IMG/VR virus record: IMGVR_UViG_3300025030_000083
Location: 1 to 64,000 of that record
From: a virus
DNA: 64,000 bases
Reading direction: 5' to 3' (one strand)
This document shows positions 5,726 through 54,771 of this stretch, piece after piece; position 1 is the stretch's first letter, and the number at the start of each line of letters is the position of its first letter. A model generated the notes under the pieces. The model had not been told where the DNA came from. It made no database searches and worked only from the letters and a program-made list of their open reading frames with translations. A program made the translations under genes and the position numbers.

Positions 5726-6927
5726 AGCAACTTTCGTCGCTTCAACATAGGATTTCCGGTTTCACAAGCACTAGCAAGGACAGAGGACTTGCGTCCTCTG
5801 CCTTGGCTAACGGTGCCTCCACCGGCAGTCACGGCGATCCCCGCCGCGATGAAACGTTGTGCCTCGTTTCTAATGTTCTTAGCGGCATTGATATCGCGGT
5901 CGTGAAGGGTTCCGCATTTGTCACATCGCCAAGAACGAATATTAAGAGGCATAGATCCTTGAACATGAAGACAAATAGAACATGCTTTGCTAGAAGGAAA
6001 GAAACGATTTACTTTAATGAAACCTTTCCCTTCCCTTTCAGTTTTGTATCTAAGAAACTCCACCAAAGTTCCCCATCCTACGTCACTGATAGCCTTAGCA
6101 AGTTTATGATTCTTCATCATACCTTTAACATGCAAATCCTCGACGGCGATGACTTGGTTTTCGTCAACAAGCCGACGAGAAATCTTGTGCAAATAGTCTT
6201 TCCTACAATTAGCAACTTTTTCATGGGCCTTCGCTACAATGATTCTGGCTTTGTTTCTAGATTTACTTCCTTTCATTTTACGAGAGAGTTTTTGTTGCTT
6301 CCTTTTCAAATTCTTTTCGGCCCTGATAAGAAATTTAGGATTATCAAATTTAGATCTGTCACTAGTGATAACAATATGAGTCAAACCCACATCAATTCCA
6401 ATAACTTTTCCTTCAAAAGAAACCGAAGGAATTGGAATCCCGTTATCAGTCAATATCGAAGCAAAATATTTACCAGAAGGAACACGACTAACCGTAACTG
6501 TTTTAATTTTACCGACGATTTCTCTATGGATTACGGCTTTTACCAAACCTATTTTAGGGAGATACATTCTATCTTTAATAATTTTTACCCCTTGGGGATA
6601 TTGGATAGATTGCTTACTTTTCTTCGATTTAAATTTGGGGTATTTTGCCCTACGTTCAAAGAAATTTATGAAAGCCCGAGACGTATTCAAACTTACATAT
6701 TGCAATACTTGACTATGTGTTTCAGCAAGCCAAGGAAACTTTTCCTTGAGTTTAGGCAATCTAGCATTCAATTCATATTGCCCAAGACCTTTCCCCGTTT
6801 CTTGGTAAACTTTTTGGGTTTCTGCGAGGCTGTTGTTCCAAAGCCATCTAGCACACCCGAATGCTTTTGTAAGGGATTCTTCTTGCAAGGAATTTGGATA
6901 GATACGAATCTTGGTGGCGGTTAGCAT
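5713..6927 (-). CDS. tnpB: TnpB RNA-guided nuclease (IS605 OrfB family)
   Basis: 404 residues, normal for the family. The RuvC-like active site looks intact: Asp179 in GIDVGL, Glu263 in AVEDLHVKGM and the aspartates of HDRDINAAKN (about 343-345). A four-cysteine zinc finger (Cys316, 319, 335, 338) lies between the last two. The N-terminus (ATKIRIYPN) is typical. TnpB proteins cut DNA guided by an RNA made from the element's right end, which overlaps the gene's 3' end here. The start ATG is the only one giving the full N-terminal motif. Confidence 0.92.
   Translation of the reverse strand: MLTATKIRIYPNSLQEESLTKAFGCARWLWNNSLAETQKVYQETGKGLGQYELNARLPKLKEKFPWLAETHSQVLQYVSLNTSRAFINFFERRAKYPKFKSKKSKQSIQYPQGVKIIKDRMYLPKIGLVKAVIHREIVGKIKTVTVSRVPSGKYFASILTDNGIPIPSVSFEGKVIGIDVGLTHIVITSDRSKFDNPKFLIRAEKNLKRKQQKLSRKMKGSKSRNKARIIVAKAHEKVANCRKDYLHKISRRLVDENQVIAVEDLHVKGMMKNHKLAKAISDVGWGTLVEFLRYKTEREGKGFIKVNRFFPSSKACSICLHVQGSMPLNIRSWRCDKCGTLHDRDINAAKNIRNEAQRFIAAGIAVTAGGGTVSQGRGRKSSVLASACETGNPMLKRRKLLHIG
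5723..5744 (-). ncRNA. TnpB right-end hairpin, part of candidate omega RNA
   Basis: On the minus strand TGAAGCGAC and GTTGCTTCA form a nine-pair stem (one G-U) closed by GAAA, a GNRA tetraloop. It overlaps the last tnpB codons, where family members encode the scaffold of the guide RNA. The guide would then read into flanking phage sequence below about 5710. RNA identity is inferred from family knowledge. Confidence 0.5.
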
Positions 6928-6997
6928 GTATTTAGTATATATTAAATTTGTAAGAAGTAAAGAAATTTATTAATTAAATGGAAAGAAAGGAGGAATA

Positions 6998-7258
6998 ATG
7001 GAAAAATATACAGTTGATCGAGTAATAGGCACCAAGTACTGTCTTGGTTGTGGGGGACTTATATCCCTGGAAGGATACACTATTCCAGAAGTAGCGAGCA
7101 GACTAACCAATGAAAAAGTATGCCAAAAAATGATTGCTATTCTAGAATTATCTGATAAGAAATGTGGTCATAATCTATTTTCCGAACCCAAATTTGAAGT
7201 TAAGATGAAGCAATACAAAAATTGGATAAACCCTCTTATGAAGAGGATGAGTAAATGA
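6998..7258 (+). CDS. hypothetical protein with CxxC
   Basis: 86 residues from ATG after AAAGGAGG. CLGCGG near residue 16 is a single CxxC pair; later cysteines (CQK, CGHN) could complete a metal site. First gene after the TnpB element and the head of a new coupled run. Confidence 0.5.
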   Translation: MEKYTVDRVIGTKYCLGCGGLISLEGYTIPEVASRLTNEKVCQKMIAILELSDKKCGHNLFSEPKFEVKMKQYKNWINPLMKRMSK

Positions 7259-7449
7259 AAATTATTTTAACCAAATTTGAAGTAGTAGATGGAAACGTTC
7301 GATGGACTTGTCAACAGGAAAATTGTAGTCATTCCTCAGAATTCATGACGGTGGCTATTTTTCATCAACACGATACTCATAATTTTCCAATGGAAAATGT
7401 AAAATTGAGTGAAAATAATACTCAATTGATTATGTTCAAGAGAAATTGA
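7255..7449 (+). CDS. zinc-finger-like protein
   Basis: 64 residues overlapping the previous gene by four bases. CQQENCSHSSEF followed by HQHDTHNF gives a C-C-H-H arrangement like a small C2H2-type finger. Target unknown. Confidence 0.5.
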   Translation: MKIILTKFEVVDGNVRWTCQQENCSHSSEFMTVAIFHQHDTHNFPMENVKLSENNTQLIMFKRN

Positions 7450-7462
7450 AGGAGATGATGAA

Positions 7463-7615
7463 ATGAAAAAAAGAGAGGTACCATCCGAGCATTTTTGTCG
7501 TATTTTAAACGTAAACGTGGATAATAAAAAGCTAACAGATGCAGAATTTAGACAAATGGTAAGAAACACCCTTCCAATAGTAATATTTGAAAGGCCAGAG
7601 GACGAGAAAAAATGA
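7463..7615 (+). CDS. small hypothetical protein
   Basis: 50 residues (MKKREVPSEHFCRILNVNVDN...), preceded by AAGGAGATG. The segment LTDAEFRQMVRNTLP looks helical. Its stop overlaps the next start. No family recognised. Confidence 0.5.
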   Translation: MKKREVPSEHFCRILNVNVDNKKLTDAEFRQMVRNTLPIVIFERPEDEKK

Positions 7616-7971
7616 TGGGGTTATTCGATACAGAACCGGAGGAGAAGAAACCTGAATCTTCCCCAGTTCTAGAATATCTGGAAAAATTTTTCAGATTGAA
7701 TAATCTTAGGTATGACCAACTCATTGTACATGCTGTCGGAGATGAAAAGATAATAGGGATCATAGAAGTAACGGGATTGTCCAAGGCTATGAGTGGAATA
7801 GTATCCGCCACCATGTATTCCGATTTGGGATATGATAATTGGTACGAATTAGTAGATTATTTTTTGGAAAAGAAAGTGTGTGTAATAAATAGGAGCAGCA
7901 TTATAACAAATTTACCTGAGGTATGTTTTGATCCCCCAAAAGCACCAACTATGTTAATGAGAAGGAGGTAA
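7612..7971 (+). CDS. hypothetical protein, 119 residues
   Basis: Starts MMGLFDTEPEEKK. An acidic N-terminus precedes a compact alpha/beta segment. No motif recognised and no membrane span. It overlaps the previous stop. Confidence 0.5.
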   Translation: MMGLFDTEPEEKKPESSPVLEYLEKFFRLNNLRYDQLIVHAVGDEKIIGIIEVTGLSKAMSGIVSATMYSDLGYDNWYELVDYFLEKKVCVINRSSIITNLPEVCFDPPKAPTMLMRRR

Positions 7972-7973
7972 TA

Positions 7974-8207
7974 ATGGGATGGATAGGAAGTAAAGAAGAA
8001 TTGATGAACGTATTAGCAGTTCACGGAGCCGATAAAGATGATGAAGGAAACTATTTGGTTTATGTAGATCCCCCTGTTTCCTTTTTGGGAATGGGGGAAG
8101 AGTGGGTAGTGAGTAATAAAACTGAAATTTCTTATAAGGGAAAGAGAATCAATTTGGCTTGGTTGTTGGGGCAAACCTCGTATGGATCTAAAGTCCAAGT
8201 AATTTGA
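7974..8207 (+). CDS. hypothetical protein, 77 residues
   Basis: ATG follows GAAGGAGG. Soluble alpha/beta protein (SKEELMNVLAVHGADKDDEGNYLVYVDPP). No family recognised. Confidence 0.5.
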   Translation: MGWIGSKEELMNVLAVHGADKDDEGNYLVYVDPPVSFLGMGEEWVVSNKTEISYKGKRINLAWLLGQTSYGSKVQVI

Positions 8208-8218
8208 AAGGGGGAAAT

Positions 8219-8311
8219 ATGAATTGTCAATGTTGTAAAGGAGATAAAGCTGAAATAATCCGTAAGAAATGTGGATGTTGGATATTTCATTTTTCTATCC
8301 GACCTTGGTAG
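8219..8311 (+). CDS. tiny cysteine-rich protein
   Basis: 30 residues with CQCCKGD and CGC, five cysteines in all, after AAAGGGGG. It could bind zinc as a knuckle. It overlaps out of frame with the upstream extension of the next gene. Confidence 0.4.
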   Translation: MNCQCCKGDKAEIIRKKCGCWIFHFSIRPW

Positions 8312-8321
8312 GGAGGAAATA

Positions 8322-8705
8322 GTGAAAAATAAAATGGAATATTATGGAATAACTCATGGAAAGACAACTGATGGAGAAGTGAATCGCCATAAAGGATGTA
8401 AGGAGGGGATTCACTTGTTTGATGAGGTATCTTCAAGTTGGAACCACTATCTGATCTGTGACAAATGCGGAATGGTTATAACTCTTACCAGTGTTATGAA
8501 GGGAGTCATACAATTACATACCAAGGTTCTCTTACGCTACCTTGATAAGGCGAGAAAATGCGGGGGATTCTACAGCCCTGGCTACAAGGGAGGACATGGG
8601 TATTCGATGGAAATGTTAAAGGCTGAACTTGCAACCAGGGAGCACGTTCCCAACAAAGTTGAAGCGAAGAAAATTCGCCAAGAGAAAGCCAAAGGAAGGA
8701 AATAA
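8322..8705 (+). CDS. zinc-binding hypothetical protein
   Basis: 127 residues from GTG after GGGAGG. CKEGIHLFD and CDKCGMVI mark a metal site in the first half; the tail is a long basic helix (NKVEAKKIRQEKAKGRK). The GTG is chosen over an earlier in-frame ATG that overlaps the gene at 8219 and lacks a ribosome site. Confidence 0.5.
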   Translation: MKNKMEYYGITHGKTTDGEVNRHKGCKEGIHLFDEVSSSWNHYLICDKCGMVITLTSVMKGVIQLHTKVLLRYLDKARKCGGFYSPGYKGGHGYSMEMLKAELATREHVPNKVEAKKIRQEKAKGRK

Positions 8706-9040
8706 TGGAAAAATTAAAAGCACGACAAATAGAAAAAAGCACCATTGATGAAGATTACTACCAACTTCAGTGGCGCGTCCTAGATCCCACGAGCCATTAC
8801 TCAAAGAAATGGACATCCCTCAACTATGACAACCAACCAAAGGAAGTGTACGAAGCAGGTTGTAGAGGATGGGATAAGTATGGATTCCCCAGTTTCTTAG
8901 ATGAAGATATAGGTATGAGGTGCTTCCGTATCGTACAAAAGAGATGGAGAGGAGATCCGGAGTGCGAAGGCACGTTACTTAGATTGGTACATATAGTAAA
9001 ACACATTCATGTTGAGGTTGAGCAAATAGTCCAAAATTGA
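8705..9040 (+). CDS. hypothetical protein, 111 residues
   Basis: ATG overlaps the previous stop and follows GGAAGG. Soluble, tryptophan-rich, no known motif. Confidence 0.5.
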   Translation: MEKLKARQIEKSTIDEDYYQLQWRVLDPTSHYSKKWTSLNYDNQPKEVYEAGCRGWDKYGFPSFLDEDIGMRCFRIVQKRWRGDPECEGTLLRLVHIVKHIHVEVEQIVQN

Positions 9041-9051
9041 AAGGAGGATAC

Positions 9052-9243
9052 ATGGAACCCTTCTGGAACATATTAAACAGATTAATGGATTATATAGGAA
9101 CATTGGCAGTGGCCATATTATTTGCTATGTTGGCGTTTTCTGTAGGATACCATATTGGATTCTCATCGGGGCTAGACACCAAAGTTACTTGGGTGGGGGA
9201 GAAATACACCATGAAGGTAACTGGAAAGGCTACAAAAAGATGA
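9052..9243 (+). CDS. small membrane protein
   Basis: 63 residues from ATG after AAAGGAGG. One clear hydrophobic helix (IGTLAVAILFAMLAFSVGY), then a polar tail, so single-span. Its stop overlaps the next start. Could act in superinfection exclusion or lysis control, but nothing specific shows this. Confidence 0.5.
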   Translation: MEPFWNILNRLMDYIGTLAVAILFAMLAFSVGYHIGFSSGLDTKVTWVGEKYTMKVTGKATKR

Positions 9244-9821
9244 AAGAAAACCTTATCCATCAAGAGAAATACAAAGACTTTGAAATTGAAATCTATCAAG
9301 ACTTTGACCCAAGGGATCCAAGAGATGACGACAATTTAGGAACTATGGCTTGTTTTCACGGTAGATATAAGTTGGGAGATTATCGTAATAACAGTATGTG
9401 TATTCAAGAACTCAACGATTATATCAAAAGAAAGGACATAATCTCACTCCCCCTCTACCTATACGATCATTCCGGAATAACTATGAAAACAACTCCGTTT
9501 TCATGCCCATGGGATTCCGGACAAGTTGGTTTTATCTATGTCACTTATGAAAATATTCGAAAGAATTTTCTAAGAAAGCATATCACCAAAGTTTTAATTG
9601 AAAAAGTTTATAAACAACTAGAAGCAGAAGTAAAGGAATACAACGATTACATAATGGGAAACGTTTATGGCTACATTATGAAAAGGGATAGGGTAGAGAT
9701 TGATTCTTGTTGGGGATTCATTGGGGATTGGGATGGAAAAGAATGGGGGGCGTTGGCAGCTGCCAAGGAATTCGTTGATGGATATAAATCTTCAAAATGT
9801 TTCATAAAGGAGGGAATATGA
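9240..9821 (+). CDS. conserved phage protein, 193 residues
   Basis: ATG overlaps the previous stop. The block LPLYLYDHSGITMKT, then FSCPWDSGQVGF, then VYGYI and DSCWGF, is one I know as a widespread uncharacterised protein of phages and mobile elements. Function unknown. No membrane span. Confidence 0.65.
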   Translation: MKENLIHQEKYKDFEIEIYQDFDPRDPRDDDNLGTMACFHGRYKLGDYRNNSMCIQELNDYIKRKDIISLPLYLYDHSGITMKTTPFSCPWDSGQVGFIYVTYENIRKNFLRKHITKVLIEKVYKQLEAEVKEYNDYIMGNVYGYIMKRDRVEIDSCWGFIGDWDGKEWGALAAAKEFVDGYKSSKCFIKEGI

Positions 9822-10030
9822 AAATCAAAACACTTATGAGATATGCAAGAGCATCTGCGAGATATAAGGGCCACGATATGAAAAAGTTTGTATGGCGAAG
9901 TTCTACTCGGTGCTTTTCAAAATGTAAAGTTTGTGGGGCATCTATGGAAGTAAATAGTAATACTGCCCCCAATGAAATTGATATTGGGGGGAAAGCAGTA
10001 GCAATAAATTGTGTGGGGAAGAAGAAATGA
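9818..10030 (+). CDS. zinc-binding hypothetical protein
   Basis: 70 residues, ATG overlapping the previous stop with AAAGGAGGG in place. CFSKCKVCGAS gives two cysteine pairs in one loop. Basic N-terminus. Confidence 0.5.
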   Translation: MKIKTLMRYARASARYKGHDMKKFVWRSSTRCFSKCKVCGASMEVNSNTAPNEIDIGGKAVAINCVGKKK

Positions 10031-10188
10031 AATCATATGACTACTACGCCGTTATTTATGAAGGGGAAGTATATTGTACCCATTGTCTTCCTTTCAACGT
10101 AAGCATAAACGACGATGGTGTATCTCCAATATTTGCAGATTCGGAGTGGGGTTATATTCCAACTTGTGATGTAGAGGATAAATCATGA
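10027..10188 (+). CDS. small hypothetical protein
   Basis: 53 residues (MKSYDYYAVIYEGEVYCTHC...) with one CTHC pair and a later Cys. It overlaps neighbours on both sides by four bases. The aromatic start YDYYAVIYEGEVYC resembles small zinc proteins of phages that begin the same way. Confidence 0.5.
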   Translation: MKSYDYYAVIYEGEVYCTHCLPFNVSINDDGVSPIFADSEWGYIPTCDVEDKS

Positions 10189-10391
10189 CAATTCTATACA
10201 AAAAAATAGAATGCCCCTATTGTGGGGTAGAACAAAGAGTTGGAGGAGACCACGGAGAAACAAAAATAGTTCGTTGTGATAATGAAATAGAAGGATGCGA
10301 TGAAGCATTCTCTATATTTATTTGGTATAAAGTTGAAATAACTACGTTCAAGATGAGTCAATTCAGAAAGTATACTGCCGATGAGGAATAG
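10185..10391 (+). CDS. zinc-ribbon protein
   Basis: 68 residues with CPYCGVEQ near the start and CDNEIEGC about 20 residues on, a typical two-knuckle zinc ribbon. Coupled to the gene before it. Confidence 0.55.
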   Translation: MTILYKKIECPYCGVEQRVGGDHGETKIVRCDNEIEGCDEAFSIFIWYKVEITTFKMSQFRKYTADEE

Positions 10392-10397
10392 GCCAAG

Positions 10398-10418
10398 GGG
10401 TGCGAGGCCCCTCAAGAA
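10398..10418. repeat. 21-base exact repeat, copy 1
   Basis: A 21-base sequence beginning GGGTGCGAGG and ending CCTCAAGAA lies in the short gap between genes and recurs exactly at 17585-17605 inside the helicase N-terminal gene. Here AGGGG and CCCCT can form a small hairpin just before the ribosome site of the next gene. Confidence 0.7.
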
Positions 10419-10429
10419 GGAGAAAAATA

Positions 10430-10588
10430 ATGAAATTTACCATCGTTTGGGATGAAAGGAAAAGCATTGAGGTGAAAGCAAATTCTGAAATAGAAGCGAG
10501 AGAAAAATTTGAAAACAATGGTTTTCCTTTTAGTGAAGTGGAATGCAATAGTTCTGAAATTGTAGAAGTATACAAATTCAAAATTTAA
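10430..10588 (+). CDS. small hypothetical protein
   Basis: 52 residues (MKFTIVWDERKSIEVKANSE...) after AAGGAG. The order beta-strand, then SEIEAREKFENNG helix, then EVYKFKI strand is a compact ferredoxin-like small fold. No family name recognised. Confidence 0.5.
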   Translation: MKFTIVWDERKSIEVKANSEIEAREKFENNGFPFSEVECNSSEIVEVYKFKI

Positions 10589-10602
10589 TAAGGGGGGCCT
10601 TC

Positions 10603-10926
10603 ATGCCAGAAATCGCTGTTCCTAAGATTTACGGCCAACCGGAAAAGAAATTCAAGGTATCCGTTCCCAAATCCAGATTGGTGACGATGGGGGAATGGAA
10701 TGAACCAAGAAGGTTAGAAAACATGCCCATTGCCATTTACAGTGAGAATGGGGAATTGAAGGAGGTTGTCACTCGTACAGGTAGGCCCGTGTCTCCGGGG
10801 GCTGATCAATGGGCTTTCAAGTACCGAGGGGAATGGTATACCACTGTCTTGGACCCCGTATTCAGATGTGGGTTACATAAGATTGGAAATCAGAAGCCGA
10901 TGAAAAGGGGAGGGAGCCATGCCTGA
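10603..10926 (+). CDS. hypothetical protein, 107 residues
   Basis: ATG after AAGGGGGG. Predicted mainly beta with several Pro and Gly turns. No motif recognised. It overlaps the next gene by eight bases. Confidence 0.5.
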   Translation: MPEIAVPKIYGQPEKKFKVSVPKSRLVTMGEWNEPRRLENMPIAIYSENGELKEVVTRTGRPVSPGADQWAFKYRGEWYTTVLDPVFRCGLHKIGNQKPMKRGGSHA

Positions 10927-11104
10927 ACATCCTACGAATGTTTGTAAAGGTTGTGGCTTTCAATACAACTTTCGAGATTCCAGTATGGAAATTGCTGGAT
11001 ACTGTACTCAGGGGTGCGTAAGATCCCAAGCCAGACGATTGGGGTGGAAAGAAAAAAGTGGAATAACTATTTATCAATTTATGAAGGAGAAAAATAATGC
11101 TTGA
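10919..11104 (+). CDS. zinc-binding hypothetical protein
   Basis: 61 residues with CKGCGFQY and CTQGC, a probable zinc site, then a helix. AGGGGAGGG lies before the ATG. Confidence 0.5.
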   Translation: MPEHPTNVCKGCGFQYNFRDSSMEIAGYCTQGCVRSQARRLGWKEKSGITIYQFMKEKNNA

Positions 11105-16957: not shown

Positions 16958-17881
16958 ATGGCCAATTATATAGAACTAAAAACAGAAGATTTCAAAGAAA
17001 TTTTTAATTCTTTACGCTTAAATTATCAAGAATTCGATAACCCCCGATCTGGAGAAATTCAATTCAAAGTTAAAACAGAACACCCCATAATTAGTGTTAT
17101 GATTTATTCTAGTGTAGACAAAAAAATGGGGGTAACAAGAGGAGTGGGGGAAGATGCAATTAGATTAGTTTTTTGGTCAGATAGAGATAATCGGCCTTTG
17201 GGAAAAGGAAAAAGGATCTACCGAGTTACCAATATGAAATCAATTTCCGATAGAATATCAAAAACAATAAAAGAGTTTCTTTCAAAAGCTCCTAATGAAT
17301 CTTTAACCGACTGGAGATATATCAAAGCCATATTAGAAGAAACGGTCAGAATTTCATCCAATCTGTCATTCGCAGAGAATCTTCTCACCGGATTGGAAAA
17401 GTACAAAAGTTTGACAGATGGGCAACTTGCCTATGTTTTGGGGGAAGTTTCTCCCAAAGGGTATGCAACCATGGAGGCGAAAATCCTGTCAAAAGGTTGG
17501 GTATATGATCCTACTTTCGTTGAAGTAGAAGAGGAAATCAGAGAACCAGGAGCCGACGAAAATGAATACGAAGCCCCTATCAAAGGGTGCGAGGCCCCTC
17601 AAGAAAACGGGAACGGGGGAGAGGACAGGGGGGAAAGAGATCGCCAAGTTCAAGTGGGAAAGTATAGCAACATAACAGTAGTATCGGACACTCCGGGGAT
17701 GGAATTAGTGCCCACTACCGGATACCCCTACAAATTTGAAAAATTTAACCCTGTTCAAAGTTTAGTATTCCCGTTTAGAAAAGATGATTGCAATTTGATT
17801 CTAGGATCTTCAACGAGTAGTGGTAAGACAATTGCAGCGGAGATAATTATGGAAGAAATTTTACGAGGGGGGAATCGGTGA
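16958..17881 (+). CDS. Ski2-like helicase, N-terminal piece (split gene)
   Basis: 307 residues. About 250 residues of unrecognised N-terminal sequence with an acidic linker lead to the helicase Q region (YKFEKFNPVQS) and Walker A GSSTSSGKT at 283-291. The frame stops 16 residues later, before motif Ia. The rest of the helicase begins at 18833 after a homing endonuclease gene. The stop overlaps that gene's GTG. No intein sequence is present at the break. Unless the transcript is processed, the ATPase must be built from two chains. Confidence 0.85.
   Translation: MANYIELKTEDFKEIFNSLRLNYQEFDNPRSGEIQFKVKTEHPIISVMIYSSVDKKMGVTRGVGEDAIRLVFWSDRDNRPLGKGKRIYRVTNMKSISDRISKTIKEFLSKAPNESLTDWRYIKAILEETVRISSNLSFAENLLTGLEKYKSLTDGQLAYVLGEVSPKGYATMEAKILSKGWVYDPTFVEVEEEIREPGADENEYEAPIKGCEAPQENGNGGEDRGERDRQVQVGKYSNITVVSDTPGMELVPTTGYPYKFEKFNPVQSLVFPFRKDDCNLILGSSTSSGKTIAAEIIMEEILRGGNR
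17585..17605. repeat. 21-base exact repeat, copy 2
   Basis: Same sequence as 10398-10418, here coding for part of the helicase's acidic linker (KGCEAPQEN). The surrounding 60 bases are unusually GC-rich, as if short foreign sequence had entered the linker. Confidence 0.7.
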
Positions 17882-18843
17882 AAAGAAAGTTACTTTTAAT
17901 AAAACGAACCATTCCCAAATGTTTGTGTGGGTGCGGCAAAATAGTTAAATCAATAAGACATAATTTTATACATGGACATAATATTGTAATATTAATGAAA
18001 AATGATCCTAATTGGCATAAAAAATTAGAAAAGACAATGATGAAAAAATATGGAGTTAAAAATATTCAACAAATCCCAGAAGTAAGAAGTAGATCAGTAA
18101 AAACTAGAAAAGAAAGATATTCTCATTGGATGGGAAATCTAACAAAAAGTCAAATAGAAGAATTTAAACAAAATTGTTCAAAAGGTGGAAAAATAGGAGG
18201 AAAATCCACCGCAAAAAGATGGAAAGATAACCCAGAAGAATTTAACGAATTTTTAAGAAAAGGCCATGAATCTCAAAAAGGCCCCGGTAATCATTATGAA
18301 AATAGTAGAGGGATTAATAACCCCATGAATTTTCCGGGGATAAGAGAAAAACATAAACAAGCTGTTATAATAGCTATGAACAAAGAAGAAACGAAGAGGA
18401 AACAACGGGAAGGATACTACAAAAAATACGGAGTGCCCTATTTTGTACTAACTGAAGAACATATGAAAAGATTAAAAAATTGTTATTCAAAACCACATAA
18501 AGATCTATTTAATGCCTTACATAATATTGACCCCTCTTTTCAAAAAGAAAAATTAGTTCATACCAAAAAATCTTCTTATAGAGTTGATATTATAAACAAG
18601 CCCACAAAATTAATTATAGAATGCTACGGAGATTACTGGCATTGTAACCCTTTAATATGGAATCCAAATGATTATAATAAATCAATAAAAAGAACTGCCC
18701 AAGAAAAATGGAAAGAAGATGAAAGTAGAATTCAATCCATACAATCTGAAGGATTTAAAGTTTTAGTATTTTGGGAAATGGATATTATTCAAGATTTAGA
18801 GCAAATACTGCAAATTATAATAGGAGTAAAAAATGACAATTAA
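17878..18843 (+). CDS. Vsr-like (EDxHD) homing endonuclease between helicase halves
   Basis: 321 residues. The N-terminus holds a small CLCGCGK zinc knuckle and GHN. The middle has repeat-like DNA-binding segments (GKIGGKSTAKRW, NNPMNFPGI). The C-terminal domain (about 205-321) carries YRVDI, IIECYGDYWHCNP, KEDESR and VLVFWEMDI, the Vsr-fold pattern of EDxHD homing enzymes such as I-Bth0305I. Starts at GTG inside the stop of the helicase N-piece and ends inside the start of the C-piece, so it fills the whole insertion and leaves no room for a group I intron. Confidence 0.8.
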   Translation: MKRKLLLIKRTIPKCLCGCGKIVKSIRHNFIHGHNIVILMKNDPNWHKKLEKTMMKKYGVKNIQQIPEVRSRSVKTRKERYSHWMGNLTKSQIEEFKQNCSKGGKIGGKSTAKRWKDNPEEFNEFLRKGHESQKGPGNHYENSRGINNPMNFPGIREKHKQAVIIAMNKEETKRKQREGYYKKYGVPYFVLTEEHMKRLKNCYSKPHKDLFNALHNIDPSFQKEKLVHTKKSSYRVDIINKPTKLIIECYGDYWHCNPLIWNPNDYNKSIKRTAQEKWKEDESRIQSIQSEGFKVLVFWEMDIIQDLEQILQIIIGVKNDN

Positions 18844-20743
18844 GCAAGAAACAAAAAAAATATTGTACATGGCTCCGTTAAAATCGCTCAGTATGGAAAA
18901 ATATAATGATTGGAAAATCAGATTCCCCGACAAAAAAATATGTATTTTGACGGGGGATTACACCTTAACGGAAGAGAAATCAAGAGAACTTAATCAAGCC
19001 GATATAATCATTTGTACAAGCGAAATGGTAGACTCTCGTACCAGGAGAATGGGAACTGAGAAAGGATTTTGGCTGCACCAAGTGGGACTCCTAATAGTAG
19101 ACGAATCTCATATTTTAACTACATCAAGAGGTTCAGCAGTAGAAGCTGGAGTTATGAGATTTACGTCTATTAATAAAAATGCAAGAATTATTTTTCTATC
19201 CGCCACGATGCCAAACGTGGATGAACTAGGAGCTTGGCTTAAAACTTTAAACGGAAAAGAAACAAAGGTGATTTATTCTACTTGGCGTCCTGTAATTCTT
19301 CAATTTCATTATAAAGAATACCCCATCATAAGAACACGATTTGGAGGAGAAAGTTACCAAGCTGCTCAAGAAGCTAAAAAATCCATCGCTATTGAAATTG
19401 TTAAATCAAAACCTACTGAAAAGTTTTTAGTGTTTACTCATGATAAAGGAATTGGTAGAAGTCTTGTAAAACGATTTGCTGAAGAAGGAATAGAATCTCA
19501 ATTTCATAATGCAGATTTAGATTTAAATGAAAGACAAGAAATAGAGTCATCTTTTAGAAAAAGAGATGGTGGATTAAGAACTATGATTTCTACATCTACC
19601 ACTGCATGGGGTGTCAATCTCCCAGCAAGAAACGTAATTATAGTAGGCATTCATAGAGGAATTACAGAAGTAGATGAACTAGATATTCTGCAGATGTCAG
19701 GCAGAGCCGGAAGATACGGAATTGACTTGCAAGGAGACGTTTATTTAATCATTCCAGAAATGACTACAGAATCTTGGAAAGAAGTTTTTAGAAATCCAAG
19801 ACCTGTTACCTCCGTACTAAAATCTCACCAAGTTCTCGCATTTCACGTTTTAGCAGAAATTCAAAATAAAGTAGTAACGGACGCCAAATCTCTTCTTGCT
19901 TGGTACTCTCGTTCTCTAGCATATTTTCAAAAAGAAGAATTTACTATTGAAGATGCTAAAGGACTTTTAAACGATCTGGAAAAAATGGAAATGGTAATAA
20001 ATAAGGAGACTCATTACATTTTAACGGGGTTAGGAAAAGTATCAGGGTGGTTATATTTTTCACCTTACGACGTTTATCACTGGTTCAAGAATTTTGACCA
20101 ATTATTCGGAACCCCAAAAACAAACGATGTTTGTCCAGTTTGTAAACTTCCCAATATTATAACAGAACCCAAAATTTGTTGCGGATATTGTGGATGGTCT
20201 TATACAAAACCCATAGTAGATGATATATCCATATCATGGGCTTTAACAGATATTCCCTCGCATGATTGGGGGTACCTACCTAAAGAAATAAAAGATTTAG
20301 CGGAGGAAATGAGATGGAAACTTCGTAACCGGGGAATTATGGCGTCAGATGCTATACATTTTTCGTTGGCTGCTTATAAATTACTAAATGGAGATGAATT
20401 AGACGGTCCTTTGAAAACTAATGCTCGAACTATTAAATATGATATTCAACGAGTAATTCAGGCATTAAGTTTAATAGATTTTCATCATGGACGTTGGGAC
20501 AAAAAAGAATTTTGGAAAATTATCCCAATTAGAATTCAATATGGAATACCAGAGGAAATGATCCCCCTCGTAAAAATTCCAGGGATCGGGGGAGTTAAGG
20601 CACGCAAACTTTTTGATAGAGGGATTCATTCTTTACAAGATATCCTTGAAAAGACGGAGGTTTTGAAATCTATTTTTGTCCCCACATTCGTCAAGAAAAT
20701 ACAAAATGACGCCCGTAAAATAATATTAGCGGAGGGGAAATGA
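18833..20743 (+). CDS. Ski2-like helicase, C-terminal piece (split gene)
   Basis: 636 residues. After seven new residues (MTIKQET) it resumes with KKILYMAPLKSL, motif Ia. Further motifs: DESH at 90-93, SAT at 123-125, TSTTAWGVNLPA at 254-265 and QMSGRAGR at 287-294. A zinc ribbon (CPVC...CCGYC, near 430-450) and a C-terminal helix-hairpin-helix (PGIGGVKARKLFDRG) follow. Together with 16958-17881 it makes a full SF2 helicase. Starts at ATG overlapping the endonuclease gene by 11 bases. Confidence 0.88.
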   Translation: MTIKQETKKILYMAPLKSLSMEKYNDWKIRFPDKKICILTGDYTLTEEKSRELNQADIIICTSEMVDSRTRRMGTEKGFWLHQVGLLIVDESHILTTSRGSAVEAGVMRFTSINKNARIIFLSATMPNVDELGAWLKTLNGKETKVIYSTWRPVILQFHYKEYPIIRTRFGGESYQAAQEAKKSIAIEIVKSKPTEKFLVFTHDKGIGRSLVKRFAEEGIESQFHNADLDLNERQEIESSFRKRDGGLRTMISTSTTAWGVNLPARNVIIVGIHRGITEVDELDILQMSGRAGRYGIDLQGDVYLIIPEMTTESWKEVFRNPRPVTSVLKSHQVLAFHVLAEIQNKVVTDAKSLLAWYSRSLAYFQKEEFTIEDAKGLLNDLEKMEMVINKETHYILTGLGKVSGWLYFSPYDVYHWFKNFDQLFGTPKTNDVCPVCKLPNIITEPKICCGYCGWSYTKPIVDDISISWALTDIPSHDWGYLPKEIKDLAEEMRWKLRNRGIMASDAIHFSLAAYKLLNGDELDGPLKTNARTIKYDIQRVIQALSLIDFHHGRWDKKEFWKIIPIRIQYGIPEEMIPLVKIPGIGGVKARKLFDRGIHSLQDILEKTEVLKSIFVPTFVKKIQNDARKIILAEGK

Positions 20744-20843: not shown

Positions 20844-20918
20844 GGGTCCTTATCTCAATGGTAGAGAAAGCGGCCCATAACCGCTGCTATCCCGGTTCGA
20901 ATCTGGGAGGACCCACCA
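20844..20918 (+). tRNA. tRNA with CAT anticodon (Met, or Ile if modified)
   Basis: A full cloverleaf is visible: acceptor GGGTCCT/AGGACCC, D stem TCTC/GAGA, anticodon stem AGCGG/CCGCT with loop CCCATAA, five-base variable loop, T stem CCCGG/CTGGG around TTCGAAT, and an encoded CCA end. The anticodon CAT is at 20876-20878. Position 33 is C instead of the near-universal U, which is odd. It could be elongator Met, initiator-like, or an Ile tRNA needing lysidine. Confidence 0.9.
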
Positions 20919-32734: not shown

Positions 32735-32946
32735 GCCATAAAGTTTTACATACTGAAGAATGGTATGAGGATCATTGCGATACTTGCGAGCACAGTAAAG
32801 AACTTCATTGTTTAATTTCGAAAGAAGTAGTCATAAATGGAAAAAATAAATACATAGCATCGGGGTGTATGGTATTTATGGATAATGGACGGAGGCTTGA
32901 GGGGAATAATCCTCACCTGAGATGCAAATGTGGGGGGTTTAAGTAA
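32731..32946 (+). CDS. cysteine-rich small protein
   Basis: 71 residues with CDTCEHSKELHC, SGCMV and CKCGG. Likely zinc binding. Overlaps genes on both sides. Confidence 0.5.
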   Translation: MSHKVLHTEEWYEDHCDTCEHSKELHCLISKEVVINGKNKYIASGCMVFMDNGRRLEGNNPHLRCKCGGFK

Positions 32947-33815
32947 TGAGAAAATTAATATGGCCTACTTATGGCGGAGTATACAAGATATTAAATGTAA
33001 TGAATGGTAAAGTTTATGTGGGGTCCGCTGCTAATTTTAAATCTAGATGGAAGTTTCATTTAGGCCAACTTCGTTACGGAAACCATCACTCTATAACTCT
33101 TCAAAGAGCTTATAACAAATATGGTGAAAGGAATTTTATGTTCGTAATTATAGAAGTAATAAAAGATAAAACAAAATTGAAAGAAAGAGAACAAATTTGG
33201 AAAGATTTTTATAAATCATATGATCCGAGATATGGATATGATATATGTCCTAAAGCTGAAAATTGCTTAGGAGTAAAACATACTCCAGAAACATGTGCCA
33301 AAAGATCTGTGGCCACCAAAAGAAATTGGGCAAATCCTGAATGCAGAGAAAGAATTATGACAAATCTAAAAAAAAGTCTATCCGATCCAGAATATAAATC
33401 TAAAATGGCAAAGATAACTAAAAAGATGTGGGAAAATCCAGAACTAAGAAAAAAAATGTTAGATGGCCAAAATAATAGAAAACCTCTAAGTACGGAAACC
33501 AAAAATAAAATCGCCTTTAGAAATAGAGAAATAGCCAAAGATCCTGAATGGAGAGCTAAAGTGTCCGCATCAAACAAAGGAAAAGTTAGGAGTGAAGAAG
33601 CTAGAGCTAATATGTCTATAGCCCAAAAGGGAAGGCCGAGAAAACCCCACTCTGCAGAGACTAAAGCAAAAATAGCAAAAGCTGCCCATAAACGATGGGC
33701 AAATCCTAAATTTCAAGAAAAAATGAAAAACATAATGGATAGTAAAGAATACCACGATAAAATATCTAAATCTCAAAAGATAAGATACAATAAACAAAAA
33801 GAAACTAAGCAATGA
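32946..33815 (+). CDS. GIY-YIG homing endonuclease with NUMOD3 repeats
   Basis: 289 residues. GGVYKILNVMNGKVYVGSA is the GIY-YIG start (here GVY/VYVG), with the catalytic Arg (SRW) and Glu (RAYNKYGERNF) regions following. After YGYDICPKA come repeated DNA-binding segments ending in KIA/KAKIA and NPE/DPE blocks, the NUMOD3 type. It lies directly before and overlapping a helicase gene, which is intact. Full-length compared with the damaged copies at 35208, 43357 and 57951. Confidence 0.85.
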   Translation: MRKLIWPTYGGVYKILNVMNGKVYVGSAANFKSRWKFHLGQLRYGNHHSITLQRAYNKYGERNFMFVIIEVIKDKTKLKEREQIWKDFYKSYDPRYGYDICPKAENCLGVKHTPETCAKRSVATKRNWANPECRERIMTNLKKSLSDPEYKSKMAKITKKMWENPELRKKMLDGQNNRKPLSTETKNKIAFRNREIAKDPEWRAKVSASNKGKVRSEEARANMSIAQKGRPRKPHSAETKAKIAKAAHKRWANPKFQEKMKNIMDSKEYHDKISKSQKIRYNKQKETKQ

Positions 33816-46023: not shown

Positions 46024-46425
46024 ATGGATGGAGAATTTCCATTTAGTCTAGACACCTATAATATGTGGGACGAAAGTTGTAAGAATAAAAATATTACTAA
46101 AAAACAGAGAGATACATTATTTATTGAATTAGAGTATTTTTATTCTCGTGTAAAAATAGCTCACGTTATTACATATCTTAATGGTTTTGTTGGGGCTGGT
46201 ACACTAATAAAACCAACTTCTCATATAATACCCAATATCAATAAAATTTGGATTTACAATGTGGGATTTAATTTAAAGGGCGATAAAATTATTCCTATTT
46301 ATAACGCAGAAATGACAATAGATGAAGCAGAAGACCAAAAAAGATGTTTACAAAAAGTTTTGGGGAATTTTAGTCTAAAAGATAGAAAAGGTCCCTTCGA
46401 ATTAAAAGAAAAGGCCGTATCTTGA
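46024..46425 (+). CDS. hypothetical protein, 133 residues
   Basis: ATG after AAGGAG. No family recognised. It ends in GTGT...TTG overlap with the radical SAM N-piece, so it is probably translated with it. Confidence 0.5.
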   Translation: MDGEFPFSLDTYNMWDESCKNKNITKKQRDTLFIELEYFYSRVKIAHVITYLNGFVGAGTLIKPTSHIIPNINKIWIYNVGFNLKGDKIIPIYNAEMTIDEAEDQKRCLQKVLGNFSLKDRKGPFELKEKAVS

Positions 46426-46829
46426 AAAAAGATATTAGAGAATTAAAATTTGGTTCCATCGTAGGATTTCGTTCAGATAGTCTTTGTTGTCCTCAAGCAT
46501 TCGGGGGGGATTGCTTTGCTGGTTGCAGTGCAGGTTGCAATTGGATGTGTCTATCAGGAGATACACCAATTAACTTATCAAATGGTACTTCTAAACCTAT
46601 AGAAGAGTTGAAAGTAGGGGATAAAGTATTAACTTATAATGAAAAAACATTTGAAGTAGAATCTAAATTAATTAAACATACTATGAATAGGAGTTCAGAA
46701 ATTATCAAAATAAAAATAGGAAATAAATTATTGAAAATAACTAAAAATCATAAAGTATTTACTGATCGGGGGTGGGTGGAAGCAGGGGAATTAATAAAGG
46801 GGGATAAAGTATTAATTTATGAAAAATGA
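46422..46829 (+). CDS. radical SAM protein A, N-extein plus N-intein
   Basis: 135 residues from TTG. Residues 1-42 are the N-extein and hold a cysteine-dense stretch (GDCFAGCSAGCNWM). Residue 43 is Cys1 of a split intein: CLSGDTPINL, KVGDKVLTYN and the block B-like TKNHKVFTDRGWVEAGEL are typical. The frame stops after the N-intein and overlaps the endonuclease gene. Trans-splicing with the product of 47784 would restore the enzyme. Confidence 0.88.
   Translation: MKKDIRELKFGSIVGFRSDSLCCPQAFGGDCFAGCSAGCNWMCLSGDTPINLSNGTSKPIEELKVGDKVLTYNEKTFEVESKLIKHTMNRSSEIIKIKIGNKLLKITKNHKVFTDRGWVEAGELIKGDKVLIYEK
46548..46826 (+). mobile_element. split intein A, N-half
   Basis: 93 residues beginning with Cys1. 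All N-terminal splicing blocks are seen. The partner C-half is coded at 47784-47900, on the far side of a homing endonuclease gene. The +1 residue there is Cys. Confidence 0.88.
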
Positions 46830-47799
46830 AATCCCTACTTGCATAGATTGTGGTAAAATAGTTTGGAGGGGCACTTCTAAAAGATGTTGGGATTGTTGGA
46901 AAAAATTAGTATCTATAAAAGACCCTAGATGTAGACCTACCCCTAAAATTAAGCCTAAAATAGTATCCCATTGCGTTGTTTGTGGGGAGGAAATTTTTAA
47001 GGATCATAAACATTGTAGAAAATGTTGGGATATTTTATTAACCACCGATCAAAACCCGATGAAATTAAAAAAGAAAAAATACCCAGAAGGATCTTTAGAA
47101 TCAGTTATTTGTATTTGCGGTTCTAAAAAATGTTCGGGGAGCAAAATTTGTATGAGCTGTAGAAAAATAGAACTATCTTCAGATAAAAATCCTTGCCATA
47201 ATTCTAATAATTTCTTTAAAAGAACAAATCCTATGAAAGATCCTAAAATTTTAGCAAAATCCTTAGTTAGTCATAGAAAAACCTATGCTCAAGAAGGATA
47301 CGTTCATCCTAATACGGGGAAGAGAAACGAGTGGTCTATAGAAAGAATGACTAATAATAATCCAATGAAAGATCCTATTATAGCTGCAAAATCTTCTGGG
47401 GAACGACATTGGTCCCATACTCAACCTGAAAACTTTGCTAAACACTTAAAAAATATATTCGCTATTTTAAATACTAACGGCCATATATCAAAGGGACAAA
47501 AAGCATTATATTCCGCTTTGAATAATTTAAAAATAAAATTTTTCCCCGAACAACAATTTATTTTCAAAGGAGAACCGTATTCTTATATTTTCGTAGATGC
47601 CTACGACCCGATAAACAACATAGCTTGGGAATATGACGGGTTTTATACTCATCGAGATGGGAAAGGACCAAAATTAGATTCTATAAGAGACCGATTACTG
47701 AAATTTTGTTATGGGGTTAAAACTATCCGAATATTGCCAGAAGACCTCCCAAATTTAGAAAGTATAATCGTGGAGAAATTGCAATGCTTAAATGGGTAG
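46819..47799 (+). CDS. Vsr-like (EDxHD) homing endonuclease in fractured gene A
   Basis: 326 residues. Four zinc knuckles in the first 120 residues (CIDC, CWDC, CVVC, CRKC and on), then NPMKDP-type repeats for DNA contact. The C-terminal domain holds SYIFVDAYDP, IAWEYDGFYTH and LDSIRDRLL, the Vsr-like EDxHD catalytic pattern, and VKTIRILPEDL. Overlaps both intein halves, a known 'fractured gene' layout. Confidence 0.8.
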   Translation: MKNEIPTCIDCGKIVWRGTSKRCWDCWKKLVSIKDPRCRPTPKIKPKIVSHCVVCGEEIFKDHKHCRKCWDILLTTDQNPMKLKKKKYPEGSLESVICICGSKKCSGSKICMSCRKIELSSDKNPCHNSNNFFKRTNPMKDPKILAKSLVSHRKTYAQEGYVHPNTGKRNEWSIERMTNNNPMKDPIIAAKSSGERHWSHTQPENFAKHLKNIFAILNTNGHISKGQKALYSALNNLKIKFFPEQQFIFKGEPYSYIFVDAYDPINNIAWEYDGFYTHRDGKGPKLDSIRDRLLKFCYGVKTIRILPEDLPNLESIIVEKLQCLNG

Positions 47800-47900
47800 A
47801 AATATCAAAAGTTATGCCTGAAGAAGAAACTATTCAAGTATTTAATATAGAAGTGGAAGATAACCCCAATTATTTTGCAGACGGGGTACTAGTTCATAAT
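47784..47900 (+). mobile_element. split intein A, C-half
   Basis: 39 residues ending VHN before Cys. Asn is the cyclising residue and the preceding His is normal. Its ATG overlaps the endonuclease gene by 16 bases. Confidence 0.88.
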
Positions 47901-48965
47901 TGTTTTTGTAGAGAAATGGAGGCAGGACTATATAACCATTATTATACGGGGTGGACAAGAGATTTAGTAAGGGCCTGTAATCCAGATGACTTTAAACAAT
48001 TATTTGATAAAGCCTTTGGATCAGATAAATATTACGATAATTGGAATATTCAATGTCTTCGTAGAGGACTCCCTTTTAATATGGGAAGCAAAGCAGAAAC
48101 ATTCTGTTTAGAAGATATGAGGGATAACGTAGTTGTCCCAGTTCTCAAATTATTCAAAGAATATAAAGTACCCATGATCATCGAAACGAAAAGCCATTAC
48201 GTCGGATTAAAAAAATATTTGGACCTTCTGAAAGATATAAACGTAGCTATTATCATTTCTATCATGGGGGGAAGTGACACTCTGAATTATAAATTGGAGC
48301 CGGGATTACCTCCCCCATCTATGAGATGGTCCCTAGTTAAGACGCTAAACGACATGGGTATTTGGACGGCTGTGCGTTGGGAACCAATCCTAGTGGGAAT
48401 CAATTCAAAAGAAGACATGTTGGAAGGGTACGCTGAGATGGCATCTCGTACTGGAGCTAAACATGTTAGTTTTTTCAATTATCGAACGTCAAATTACAAA
48501 ATAGCTCAAAAAGAATTCGAAAGCAGAGGATATAATTACGTCAAACTTTTGGAAAAGAATCTAGATGAAAATTGGACTCCCGTAGGAAAACAATTTAGAG
48601 AAATTTTGAAAAATAAAAACGTCCCTGCGTCCTCCCCTGATTTTGTAAATTTTCCATTTAGTAATTCTTGTGAAAGTTGTTGTGGAGTTGATGGGCTATT
48701 CGTTCCCTACGAATTTACTTTTCAACATGCTTGTAAAATAATAATGGAAAAGGGGTTAGTTTGTTGGGATGATATGGAAGCAATAACCTTTCGACAGCCT
48801 GAGGCTTATGATCGAATGAAAGAAATTTGGAATGGAAAGGGACAATATTTCTCTTTGAATGATAGCCCAGAAATTAAAGTTTTAGATAAAGATAAAAATG
48901 GTATGAATATTTATGGAAGAAAAGAAGAAGGCTCCGTTGAAGATAAGAAAGGACTTCTATTTTGA
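47784..48965 (+). CDS. radical SAM protein A, C-intein plus C-extein
   Basis: 393 residues. Residues 1-39 are the C-intein ([20 protein letters not shown] at its end), and Cys40 is the +1 residue. The extein reads CFCREMEAG..., with [22 protein letters not shown] and VRWEPIL, features of the spore-photoproduct-lyase-like branch (COG1533). A late CESCCG motif may hold a second cluster. After splicing, the cysteine stretch is C-x3-C-x3-C-x-C, not the usual C-x3-C-x2-C. Confidence 0.82.
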
Positions 48966-51229
48966 AAAGAATATTAGTAACGGGGGGAGCCGGTTTTATT
49001 GGATCTCACCTATGTAAAAAATTATTGGAATTGAGAAATGAAGTTATTTGCTTAGACAATTTTTTTTCTTCTACCAAAAAAAATATTATTCCATTAATGA
49101 CTAATCCTAATTTTGAATTATTACGTCATGATGTAACCTTTCCCCTATATATTGAAGTAGACGAGATATATAATCTAGCGGCTCCGGCATCCCCAATTTA
49201 TTACCAAAAGGACCCCGTTCAAACCACTAAGACGATAGTTCACGGGGCTATAAATATGCTAGGATTAGCCAAGAGGACTAAAGCTAAAATATTGCAAGCA
49301 TCCACATCAGAAGTATACGGGAATCCCCAAGAACATCCTCAAACGGAGGAATATTGGGGCAATGTAAATCCAATCGGAATTAGATCATGCTATGATGAAG
49401 GGAAAAGATGTGCAGAGACGTTATTTTTCGATTACTACAGACAAAATAATGTTCCCATCCGGGTGGTTAGAATATTCAATAGTCTTACGGGGGACCAAAA
49501 AGTTATTTACTATAAAAATGGTATTTTAAAGTATAAAAAATTTATAGATTGCTATGACGATATAAAAAATGAGATAGAAAATATAATAGTTCCTTGCTTT
49601 GGTAAAGATAACCGATATGTTCTTTCCCCTATTAGTGGAATCCATAAACATAAAGTGACAAAAAACGGCTACGAATTATTTTTAACTTGGGGAAAACAAA
49701 TAAAATTGACGGAGGATCATGGAGTTTTCATTTTAAATAAAAATCAGAAAATTCAAGAAAAATTTGTCAAAGATTTGGTAATTGGTGATATTATTGCTAT
49801 ACCAAATCAAATAAAATGGATAGATATTCCATTAATGCCATTTAAAATATCAAATATTCTAAAACAAGATTTTAATTTTTATGTATCTAATGATGATGAT
49901 TTAGAAAGGATTATTAACAATAAATATTTTATAAATAAATGTAAACAAAGTGGTGTTGGATTACCATCAACTATAAATAATTTCAAAAGAGTCAAAAGAA
50001 TAAAATCCAGTTTTCTCAAAAGTAATAATATTATACTAAACTCCAATGATTATATCGTTCTAGATGATTCTAAGCATATTATTAAAAATAATATTAATAT
50101 TATGGAGGAATTTTTGTGGTTTTTAGGTTTTTATGTTGCAGAAGGAAGTTTAGTAAATAATAATGGGGGGGATTATCAATTACATTTTTATTCTGATTTG
50201 AAATACCTTCAAAAATTAAATCAAATAATTTATAATTTATTTGAATTAGAAACAAAAATTTATTCCTCAGATACAAAACCTCATATTTGTATTCGTAGTA
50301 AAATCATTTTTGAATTGGTAACTAAATATTTTGAATTTGGAATTAAAAAACAACTAGAAAAAATTATTCCAGATTGGATTATACAATTACCCAAAGATCA
50401 ACTTAAATGGTTCCTTTTAGGATTTTGGGAAGGGGATGGAAACCACGATGCTAAAACTACTGGTAATAAATTAATTTTTAGTTCATCTAGCATAAATTTG
50501 ATAGACAATTTAAATTTAATTTTATTAAAATTTGGGATAATTGGGAGTACCTGTTGCTATTATACTACATGCAGTAAAGATAATCCCAAACTTTATAAAG
50601 GATACTTAATAACGGTGCAAGGATTAAGCCATTATGATATATCTAGATTAGATACCGTAGTTCAAAAATTACAAAGAAAAAAGAATAGCGATATTCAATG
50701 GGCGCATATCAAAGATATAAAAAAATTTGATTTAATAGAAGAGAATGTTTATGATTTCTCCGTGAAAAATTTTGAAAATTTTATTGGAGGAGATTTAATA
50801 TCTTGCCATAATACTTATGGCCCCAATATGAAAATAAACGATGGAAGGGTAGTATCTAATTTTATAGTTCAAGCATTAACGAGTAAACCTATAACCATTT
50901 ATGGAAATGGAAAACAAACTCGATCTTTTTGCTATATAAGTGATACTGTGAATGGTTTGATATCTATGATGGAACAGGATAAATATGTGGGCCCTATTAA
51001 TTTGGGGAATCCAGAAGAATTGAAAATAGTGGACGTAGCAAATCTCATAGTAAATTTAACCGAATCTGATTCTAAATTAGAATTCAAATCTTTGCCATTA
51101 GATGATCCTACTAGGAGAAAGCCAGATATATCTTTGGCCAAAGAAATATTAAAATGGAGGCCAAAAGTAAATTTTAAAGAAGGATTGCAATATACAATAA
51201 AATATTTTAAAGATACGTTAGGGAGATAA
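48962..51229 (+). CDS. UDP-glucuronate-decarboxylase-like SDR with intein
   Basis: 755 residues, of which the host enzyme is 311. [12 protein letters not shown] is the NAD loop, [10 protein letters not shown] and SCYDEGKR (Tyr-x3-Lys) the catalytic motifs, as in UDP-xylose synthases. The intein interrupts the conserved RIFN-TYGP block. A TTG start overlaps the radical SAM A stop, so enzyme A and this enzyme are probably made together. It would supply or edit a nucleotide sugar. Confidence 0.85.
49481..50812 (+). mobile_element. intein with LAGLIDADG endonuclease in SDR gene
   Basis: 444 residues, Ser1 to Asn444 (ISCHN), with Thr as the +1 residue. Two LAGLIDADG helices are visible ([14 protein letters not shown] and [14 protein letters not shown]), so the homing enzyme is probably active. 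Far more AT-rich than the flanks, as expected for a mobile insert. Confidence 0.88.
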
Positions 51230-51918: not shown

Positions 51919-52674
51919 ATGAAAAGAATATCTGGGGTATATATGATTCTTAATAGAATCAACGGAAAGAAATATATAGGATCTTCTAAAGACGTGTATA
52001 ACAGATGGAATCAACATTTGACGGAACTTCGTAAGGGAAAACATACTAAACATATACAAGCAGCTTATTATAAATATGGGGAAGAATCTTTTGTATTTAT
52101 GGTAATAGAAATAATTAAATATTTAGATCAATTAACTACTAGGGAACAATATTGGAAAGACTTTTATAAATCATATGATCGAATATATGGATATGATATT
52201 TGTAGATATGCTAGTTCTACTTTGGGGTATAAGCATACAGAAAAAACTAAGAAAAAAATAAGTTTAGCTCATAATGGAAAAATAAATTCAGAAGAAACGA
52301 GGGGGAAAATAAGTTTAGCTAATAAAGGAGAAAATCACCCTTTATTTGGGAAACACCATACAGAAGAAACTAGAAAAAGAATGAGTTTAATACATATAGG
52401 AAAACATCCTTCTGAAGAAACTAAAGCAAAAATAGGTTTGGCCAATAAAGGAAAACATATTCTTTCGGAGGAGTTAAAAAGAAAATTAAGTTTAGCTAAT
52501 AAAGGAAAACATCTTTCTAAAGAACATAAAGAAAAAATAAGTTTAGCTTTAAAAGGAAAACCTCTTTCTGAGGAGACTAAGAAAAAAATGAGTTTATCCG
52601 GTAAAGGAAAACCAAAATCTGAAGAAACTAAAATAAAGATGAGAATAGCAGCTAAGAAAAGAGCGAATCATTGA
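51919..52674 (+). CDS. GIY-YIG homing endonuclease with NUMOD3 repeats
   Basis: 251 residues. SGVYMILNRINGKKYIGSSK starts the GIY-YIG domain; the catalytic Arg (NRW) and Glu (AYYKYGEESF) follow. From residue 105, at least six copies of a 'HS/SEETKxKISLANKGK' motif of about 18 residues make a long DNA-binding array. Full-length. Not inside an intron; sits next to a conserved phage gene, as free-standing homing genes do. Confidence 0.85.
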   Translation: MKRISGVYMILNRINGKKYIGSSKDVYNRWNQHLTELRKGKHTKHIQAAYYKYGEESFVFMVIEIIKYLDQLTTREQYWKDFYKSYDRIYGYDICRYASSTLGYKHTEKTKKKISLAHNGKINSEETRGKISLANKGENHPLFGKHHTEETRKRMSLIHIGKHPSEETKAKIGLANKGKHILSEELKRKLSLANKGKHLSKEHKEKISLALKGKPLSEETKKKMSLSGKGKPKSEETKIKMRIAAKKRANH

Positions 52675-54662: not shown

Positions 54663-54771
54663 ATTTAAGAAAATAAAAAGTCTACGGAAAATTAGTAAAC
54701 CTACTGCTGTATTTGATTTAACTGTAGATAGAAATAGCAATTTCTTTGCATCTTCCCAATTAGTTCATAAT
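54652..54771 (+). mobile_element. split intein B, C-half
   Basis: 40 residues (FDLTVDRNSNFFASSQLVHN at the end) with Asn at the junction and Cys as +1. The +1 Cys is the first ligand of the iron-sulphur motif. Confidence 0.9.

Follow-up and report, generated by a model that had tools for sequence, protein, structure and literature searches.

The window analysed here is a 64,000-nucleotide stretch of viral DNA (IMG/VR record IMGVR_UViG_3300025030_000083, positions 1 to 64,000), and its numbering is used for all coordinates except those given with the name of another contig. It contains a Ski2-like superfamily 2 (SF2) helicase gene that is cut in two by the gene of a putative homing endonuclease. 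We propose that different homing endonucleases repeatedly and independently split this helicase at one permissive turn, and that the split then became permanent, yielding an obligate two-chain helicase encoded by movable genes. We put the probability of this reading at roughly two in three.

The three open reading frames (ORFs) of the locus, an N-piece and a C-piece of the helicase on either side of the endonuclease, have exactly the boundaries given in the initial annotation (Table 1). That annotation placed the break between Walker A in the N-piece and motif Ia in the C-piece, in agreement with the motif positions and with the match to Pfam DEAD (PF00270): profile positions 1-39 fall on the end of the N-piece and 42-166 on the start of the C-piece, the N-piece match being weak when taken alone (E 0.02). 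Thus, a single RecA-like domain is cut and nothing is lost. The C-piece contains motifs Ia, II (DESH), III (SATMP), IV and VI (GRAGR), the second RecA domain, the helicase C-terminal domains and a helix-hairpin-helix (HhH) domain; further matches are to the C-terminal helicase domain and to a phage family named "Holliday junction branch migration helicase". An undivided relative, on IMG/VR contig L002, has sequence matches to ASCC3, Slh1, Brr2 and Hel308, and its predicted structure matches Hel308/Brr2. The split gene is a Ski2-like (Hel308/Brr2) SF2 helicase, and its motif set is complete across both pieces.

Comparison with undivided homologues in related phages, proposed as a check in the initial annotation, gave the whole gene with an empty site: L002 is syntenic with the window, and its helicase is one ORF of 941 amino acids (aa), 74% identical in the C part. 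Comparison with L002 and L003 shows ILRGGNR/KILYMAPL as the window's native joint (marked by the slash). The N-piece stop is the first codon past this joint, and the C-piece leader MTIKQETK comes from the insert. The three cistrons overlap at their starts and stops, each preceded by a Shine-Dalgarno-like site: AAGGAG before the N-piece and, before the GTG start of the endonuclease, which overlaps the N-piece stop (GTGA), GAGGGGGG within the helicase coding sequence. The insert is AT-richer than its surroundings, with a guanine-cytosine content of 28.8% in the endonuclease gene against 39.3% and 35.5% in the flanks.

The same break recurs. Helicase relatives were collected from viral contigs and genomes, and 190 loci were examined for a split in the stretch from Walker A to motif Ia; several contigs were counted repeatedly (the window's own sequence is also L001, L076 and L165, G001 is L122 and G002 is L141). 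In four more contigs, L167, L191, G001 and G002, the gene is split in the same three-residue turn. In L167, an N-piece ending HILKYGV (stop) is followed by a different EDxHD-like endonuclease gene and then, with a 4-nucleotide ATGA overlap, by a C-piece starting MRNKILYMSP. The G001 C-piece starts MIMAKVIFSAPL, just after an HNH endonuclease gene with which it shares an ATGA overlap, and the N-piece is found 4.4 kb upstream, with other ORFs in between. The nuclease domain of this HNH enzyme is of another kind than that of the window's endonuclease, despite the related DNA-binding half (33% identity, aa 7-204, E 1e-30). L191 has an N-piece ending HVLKYGV (stop) and a C-piece at a distance of 4.4 kb; the genes in this interval include a DNA-ligase-like one and no endonuclease. 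In G002, the N-piece lies downstream of the C-piece, whose own start is beyond the contig end. In two contigs, no endonuclease is left between the helicase halves. Each split half retains its visible share of the helicase motifs. A search of the window's record and of G001, L167 and L191 found no intact helicase copy, and a hidden intact copy in these records was thus rejected.

In the L002 model, the break is a turn between a helix (292-305) and a strand (309-314), and in ASCC3/Slh1 alignments the loop at this place varies in length. That chance alone would put three insertions into the same 3-residue turn of a protein of 941 residues is very unlikely (a rough estimate is (5/941)^2). Unusually conserved site DNA was considered as a cause of this recurrence and rejected, the 20 codons around the break being at the 33rd percentile of the gene in DNA conservation. 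Since this is ordinary, the likeliest reason for the recurrence is that breaks in the turn are tolerated and thus survivable. The DNA-binding half common to the window and G001 endonucleases is a second reason.

On a tree of 40 proteins built from the C part of the helicase, the split state needs four changes. A single clade of all split helicases was rejected (approximately unbiased test, p=1.5e-5), as was a grouping of the window with L167 and L191 (p 2e-4); L167 and L191 together were not rejected (p 0.20), and both share the same N-piece ending. Therefore at least three events are needed: one in the window, one in L167/L191 and one in G001/G002. It is unlikely that all the split lineages instead come from one old split, the whole genes having been restored by recombination. 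Every break is indeed at the same turn, and the window and G001 endonucleases have a DNA-binding half in common, but the split helicases do not form a clade, the closest relative of the window's helicase is undivided with strong support (99), and the endonucleases are of three different sorts, which argues for repeated insertion.

Do the two halves work as one helicase? By the established SF2 mechanism, neither a C-piece that lacks the P-loop nor an N-piece that lacks the remainder of the domain can be a helicase on its own. Both pieces are under purifying selection, with ratios of nonsynonymous to synonymous substitution (dN/dS) against L002 of 0.20 for the N-piece and 0.16 for the C-piece, and in the tree the branch of the window's helicase is only somewhat longer than the L002 branch (0.20 vs 0.16). 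Moreover, in pairs of split helicases that have diverged far, conservation of the N-piece is higher in its Walker A tail than in the remainder, which is the N-terminal domain (61% vs 42% in G001/G002, 70% vs 46% in L167/L191). If the tail were a relic, it should have decayed, so this favours joint function. The two-chain ATPase suggested in the initial annotation is supported indirectly, relatives keeping both halves as separate motif-bearing genes, even where the space between them holds no endonuclease. All together, the best explanation, and in our judgement a highly probable one on this comparative evidence, is a two-chain helicase assembled from separately made pieces. What the sequences themselves show is the layout of the locus, its whole and divided relatives, and an origin that is not single. 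We infer the production of both pieces, their binding to each other and their activity, as well as present or past activity of the endonuclease.

Several points weigh against the proposal. The tree counts changes, among which repeated gain and repair by recombination with whole alleles are indistinguishable, and all the split records may be incomplete contigs. In the window's endonuclease, D, E(CYGDYW)H and D of the catalytic set are present, and the first E/Q position is H. The split in the window may be recent (its sister in L002 is undivided), and the conservation of its pieces alone is then not proof of function after the split; the functional argument thus leans on the other split lineages. 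Finally, the N-terminal domain of the helicase also exists as a stand-alone small protein, and the N-pieces might be kept partly for it. These last two points would suit the view that the insertion broke a dispensable helicase and that its two pieces are relics in decay, with the N-piece perhaps retained for its N-terminal domain alone. We find this quite improbable: both pieces are intact and constrained, divergent split lineages keep both motif-bearing pieces, dispersed ones included, and no part of the N-piece is as well conserved as its Walker A tail. The stand-alone proteins are encoded at L178 4514-4951, L181 5785-6387 and L182 5872-6306; they have a zinc-finger-like end and no adjoining helicase domain.

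A two-chain helicase presupposes that the halves are not spliced together. The initial annotation saw no intein blocks on either side, and indeed the N-piece has zero residues past the joint and the C-piece only 8 extra ones. It also held that a group I intron core does not fit, which agrees with an endonuclease ORF that occupies about 98% of the insert (all but the last 13 bp) and with Rfam, which gave no group I or II intron at E<=1, nor on 1.3 kb even at E<=10, nor in a scan of the whole window. Readthrough joining the halves was rejected because the N-piece frame has 36 stops within the insert. Self-splicing of the insert, through an unusual group I or II intron or in trans, would give a full-length helicase and has some precedent, as EDxHD endonucleases do reside in introns (PMC3943268, PMC12350094) and the same genome carries split inteins. 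It is nevertheless very improbable given these results, the C-piece's own ribosome-binding site and the L191 halves, which have other genes in the 4.4 kb between them. As to an assembly error, which the initial annotation named as a threat to its claim, or a binning artefact, every sequence is metagenomic, but a second IMG/VR record is 100% identical across the locus over 13.9 kb, which disfavours misassembly of one record, and four further contigs have the same break with different inserts, so that we give this possibility hardly any credence.

Table 1. Features of the split helicase locus, in window coordinates
Feature	Position	Strand	Description
Helicase N-piece	16958..17881	+	307 aa; N-terminal domain, FNPVQ motif, first strand, Walker A, P-loop helix; ends at the junction
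Walker A (motif I)	17807..17830	+	SSTSSGKT, in N-piece
Putative homing endonuclease gene	17878..18843	+	321 aa; free-standing, EDxHD/Vsr-type; GTG start
Insert	17879..18856	+	978 bp; missing from undivided L002 and L003; edges uncertain by a few bases
Endonuclease DNA-binding half	17920..18489	+	CLCGCG zinc-finger-like start, helical repeats
Endonuclease catalytic motif	18619..18642	+	ECYGDYWH
Ribosome-binding site of C-piece	18820..18832	+	AGGAG; within 3' end of endonuclease gene
Helicase C-piece	18833..20743	+	636 aa; 8-residue insert-derived leader, then motif Ia onward
Motif Ia	18875..18889	+	PLKSL, in C-piece

The middle ORF matches the PHROG homing endonuclease family and Pfam DUF559. 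A phmmer search of the endonuclease against the Protein Data Bank (PDB) gave chance matches only, and it was the fold search that resolved its identity. The C-terminal domain of the model covers about residues 200-320, most blocks having a predicted local distance difference test (pLDDT) score of 86-98, and Foldseek matched this domain to Vsr (1CW0/1VSR) and to I-Bth0305I (3R3P), all with probability 1.00 and E 0.004-0.04; the match to I-Bth0305I had a TM-score of 0.73 on the target. On its modelled fold, the ORF is a homing endonuclease of the EDxHD/Vsr type, with predicted nuclease activity. About 100 bases downstream of the helicase C-piece is a tRNA-Met gene (CAT anticodon, 20844-20918), the sole tRNA gene in the window.

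The initial annotation gave the helicase locus "the same fractured layout". Set beside the window's two split-intein fractures, this holds for the gene order and not for the enzyme. The endonucleases of these two fractures are mutually related (E 2.5e-26) and only marginally similar, if at all, to the one in the helicase insert; direct kinship was rejected on this weak similarity. In other phages, the sampled relatives of the insert endonuclease are found in split-intein fractures of RecA-like or dUTPase-like genes, or are intergenic, and no intein-less split was found among these sampled loci. Related EDxHD endonucleases are located between the split-intein halves of RecA/UvsX-like and dUTPase-like genes in L022, L029, L053, L055, L059; L013, L027, L050 and L061.

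The two fractured genes of the window are radical-SAM-like, and their split inteins were read from translations. The first, at 46422-48965, consists of N-extein and N-intein (46422-46829), an EDxHD-like endonuclease (46819-47799), and C-intein and C-extein (47784-48965). The second (52966-56352) is also fractured by a split intein, with its endonuclease at 53517-54662; a few residues further on, its C-piece contains a second, contiguous mini-intein (HN/CSYACKYC/LPPK...HN/CFAD, slashes marking the boundaries), so that two inteins are close together in a cysteine motif. A nucleotide-sugar epimerase gene (48962-51229) has a large in-frame intein, LAGLIDADG-type by look, and two GIY-YIG-like endonuclease genes (32946-33815 and 51919-52674) have long NUMOD-like repeat tails.

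The helicase family itself is also invaded by inteins. In L075 (1096-4953), the same family is fractured at motif V by a split intein and an endonuclease, and the endonuclease of L167 is related to this one (30%, E 6e-24). This kinship shows that one endonuclease lineage has used both an intein and an intein-less way of living within the helicase family, and gives one real link to the intein route. Inserts at motif V were also seen in L125, L126, L128, L129 and L133, the one that was read (L125) being an in-frame intein. Other in-frame inteins of the helicase are at Walker A (L104 3968-7048) and at motif II (L123 3896-7123), and the L176 helicase (5866-11024) has both an in-frame intein before motif II and a split-intein fracture at motif V. 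Just upstream of the ribosome-binding site of the L167 endonuclease is a near-perfect AT-rich inverted repeat (about 1200-1254), which recalls the hairpins that control the ribosome-binding sites of T4-like endonuclease genes.

An evolutionary scenario may thus be suggested. The gene of an EDxHD/Vsr-type homing endonuclease would have inserted, without an intron or intein, into the turn that links the P-loop helix to the following beta-strand in RecA domain 1, leaving three overlapping cistrons for the N-piece, the endonuclease and the C-piece. The N-piece would terminate at the junction, and the end of the insert would provide the C-piece with its ribosome-binding site, start codon and short leader. 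Made separately, the pieces would co-fold non-covalently into one helicase, its ATP site being formed by two chains: the N-piece would give the P-loop, and the C-piece would give Walker B and motif VI. As the break sits in a permissive turn, the split would be tolerated, recurrent and lasting, and it would persist once the endonuclease has gone and the halves have moved away from each other. The visible series runs from the whole gene, through an endonuclease between the halves and halves apart with an endonuclease beside one, to dispersed halves free of the endonuclease. The idea of the initial annotation that the locus is an early or late stage on the path to fractured genes is thus borne out in that stages exist; the path, however, leads to a settled two-gene helicase and not clearly to or from split inteins. 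With several stages within one helicase family, it becomes testable how selfish insertions make one protein into two. The locus also suggests that two chains, divided beside the P-loop, can together form a helicase core, and its natural split site could serve for two-part helicases.

Several known systems resemble parts of this one. I-Bth0305I (PDB 3R3P), which belongs to a group I intron (PMC3943268), shares the nuclease fold and the conserved D, H and D positions with the window's endonuclease, which differs in having no intron, a DNA-binding half of its own and H as the first motif residue. Split-intein fractured genes with EDxHD endonucleases (Dassa et al. 2009, as cited in PMC10448857 and PMC12350094) have the same order of N-piece, EDxHD/Vsr endonuclease and C-piece in phage genes. 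Unlike those genes as they are presented in the citing papers, the helicase locus is without split-intein blocks and trans-splicing, and its halves must work without a covalent link. Among replication enzymes in pieces beside homing endonuclease genes are also the T4 topoisomerase genes 39/60 with mobA and the split gene 43 DNA polymerase of phages 25 and 44RR, of which the phage 25 products gp43A/B co-purify and are active (PMC2988022). These involve other proteins and nucleases, and the review does not describe repeated splits at a single residue position for them.

The closest likeness is to nrdA of Aeromonas phage Aeh1, an essential enzyme gene which is split by mobE and of which the two chains form an active enzyme (Friedrich et al. 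2007, reviewed in PMC2988022). In both systems, a free-standing endonuclease gene separates the parts of one enzyme gene without an intron or intein, and the helicase has an undivided relative, as in genes in pieces of the Aeh1 type. Aeh1, as the review presents it, is a single case that concerns a ribonucleotide reductase and an HNH nuclease, whereas here the enzyme is a helicase with a divided ATP site, the nuclease is EDxHD, the splits recur at one turn and the halves are separated in some lineages. No paper on a split helicase of the Ski2-like type came out of our literature search. That homing endonucleases make genes in pieces without inteins was already known, from a few single cases. 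As far as the literature was searched, the novelty lies in the host enzyme with its divided ATP site, in splits that recur at one turn with different endonucleases, and in lineages where the split has lasted longer than the endonuclease or than the proximity of the two halves.

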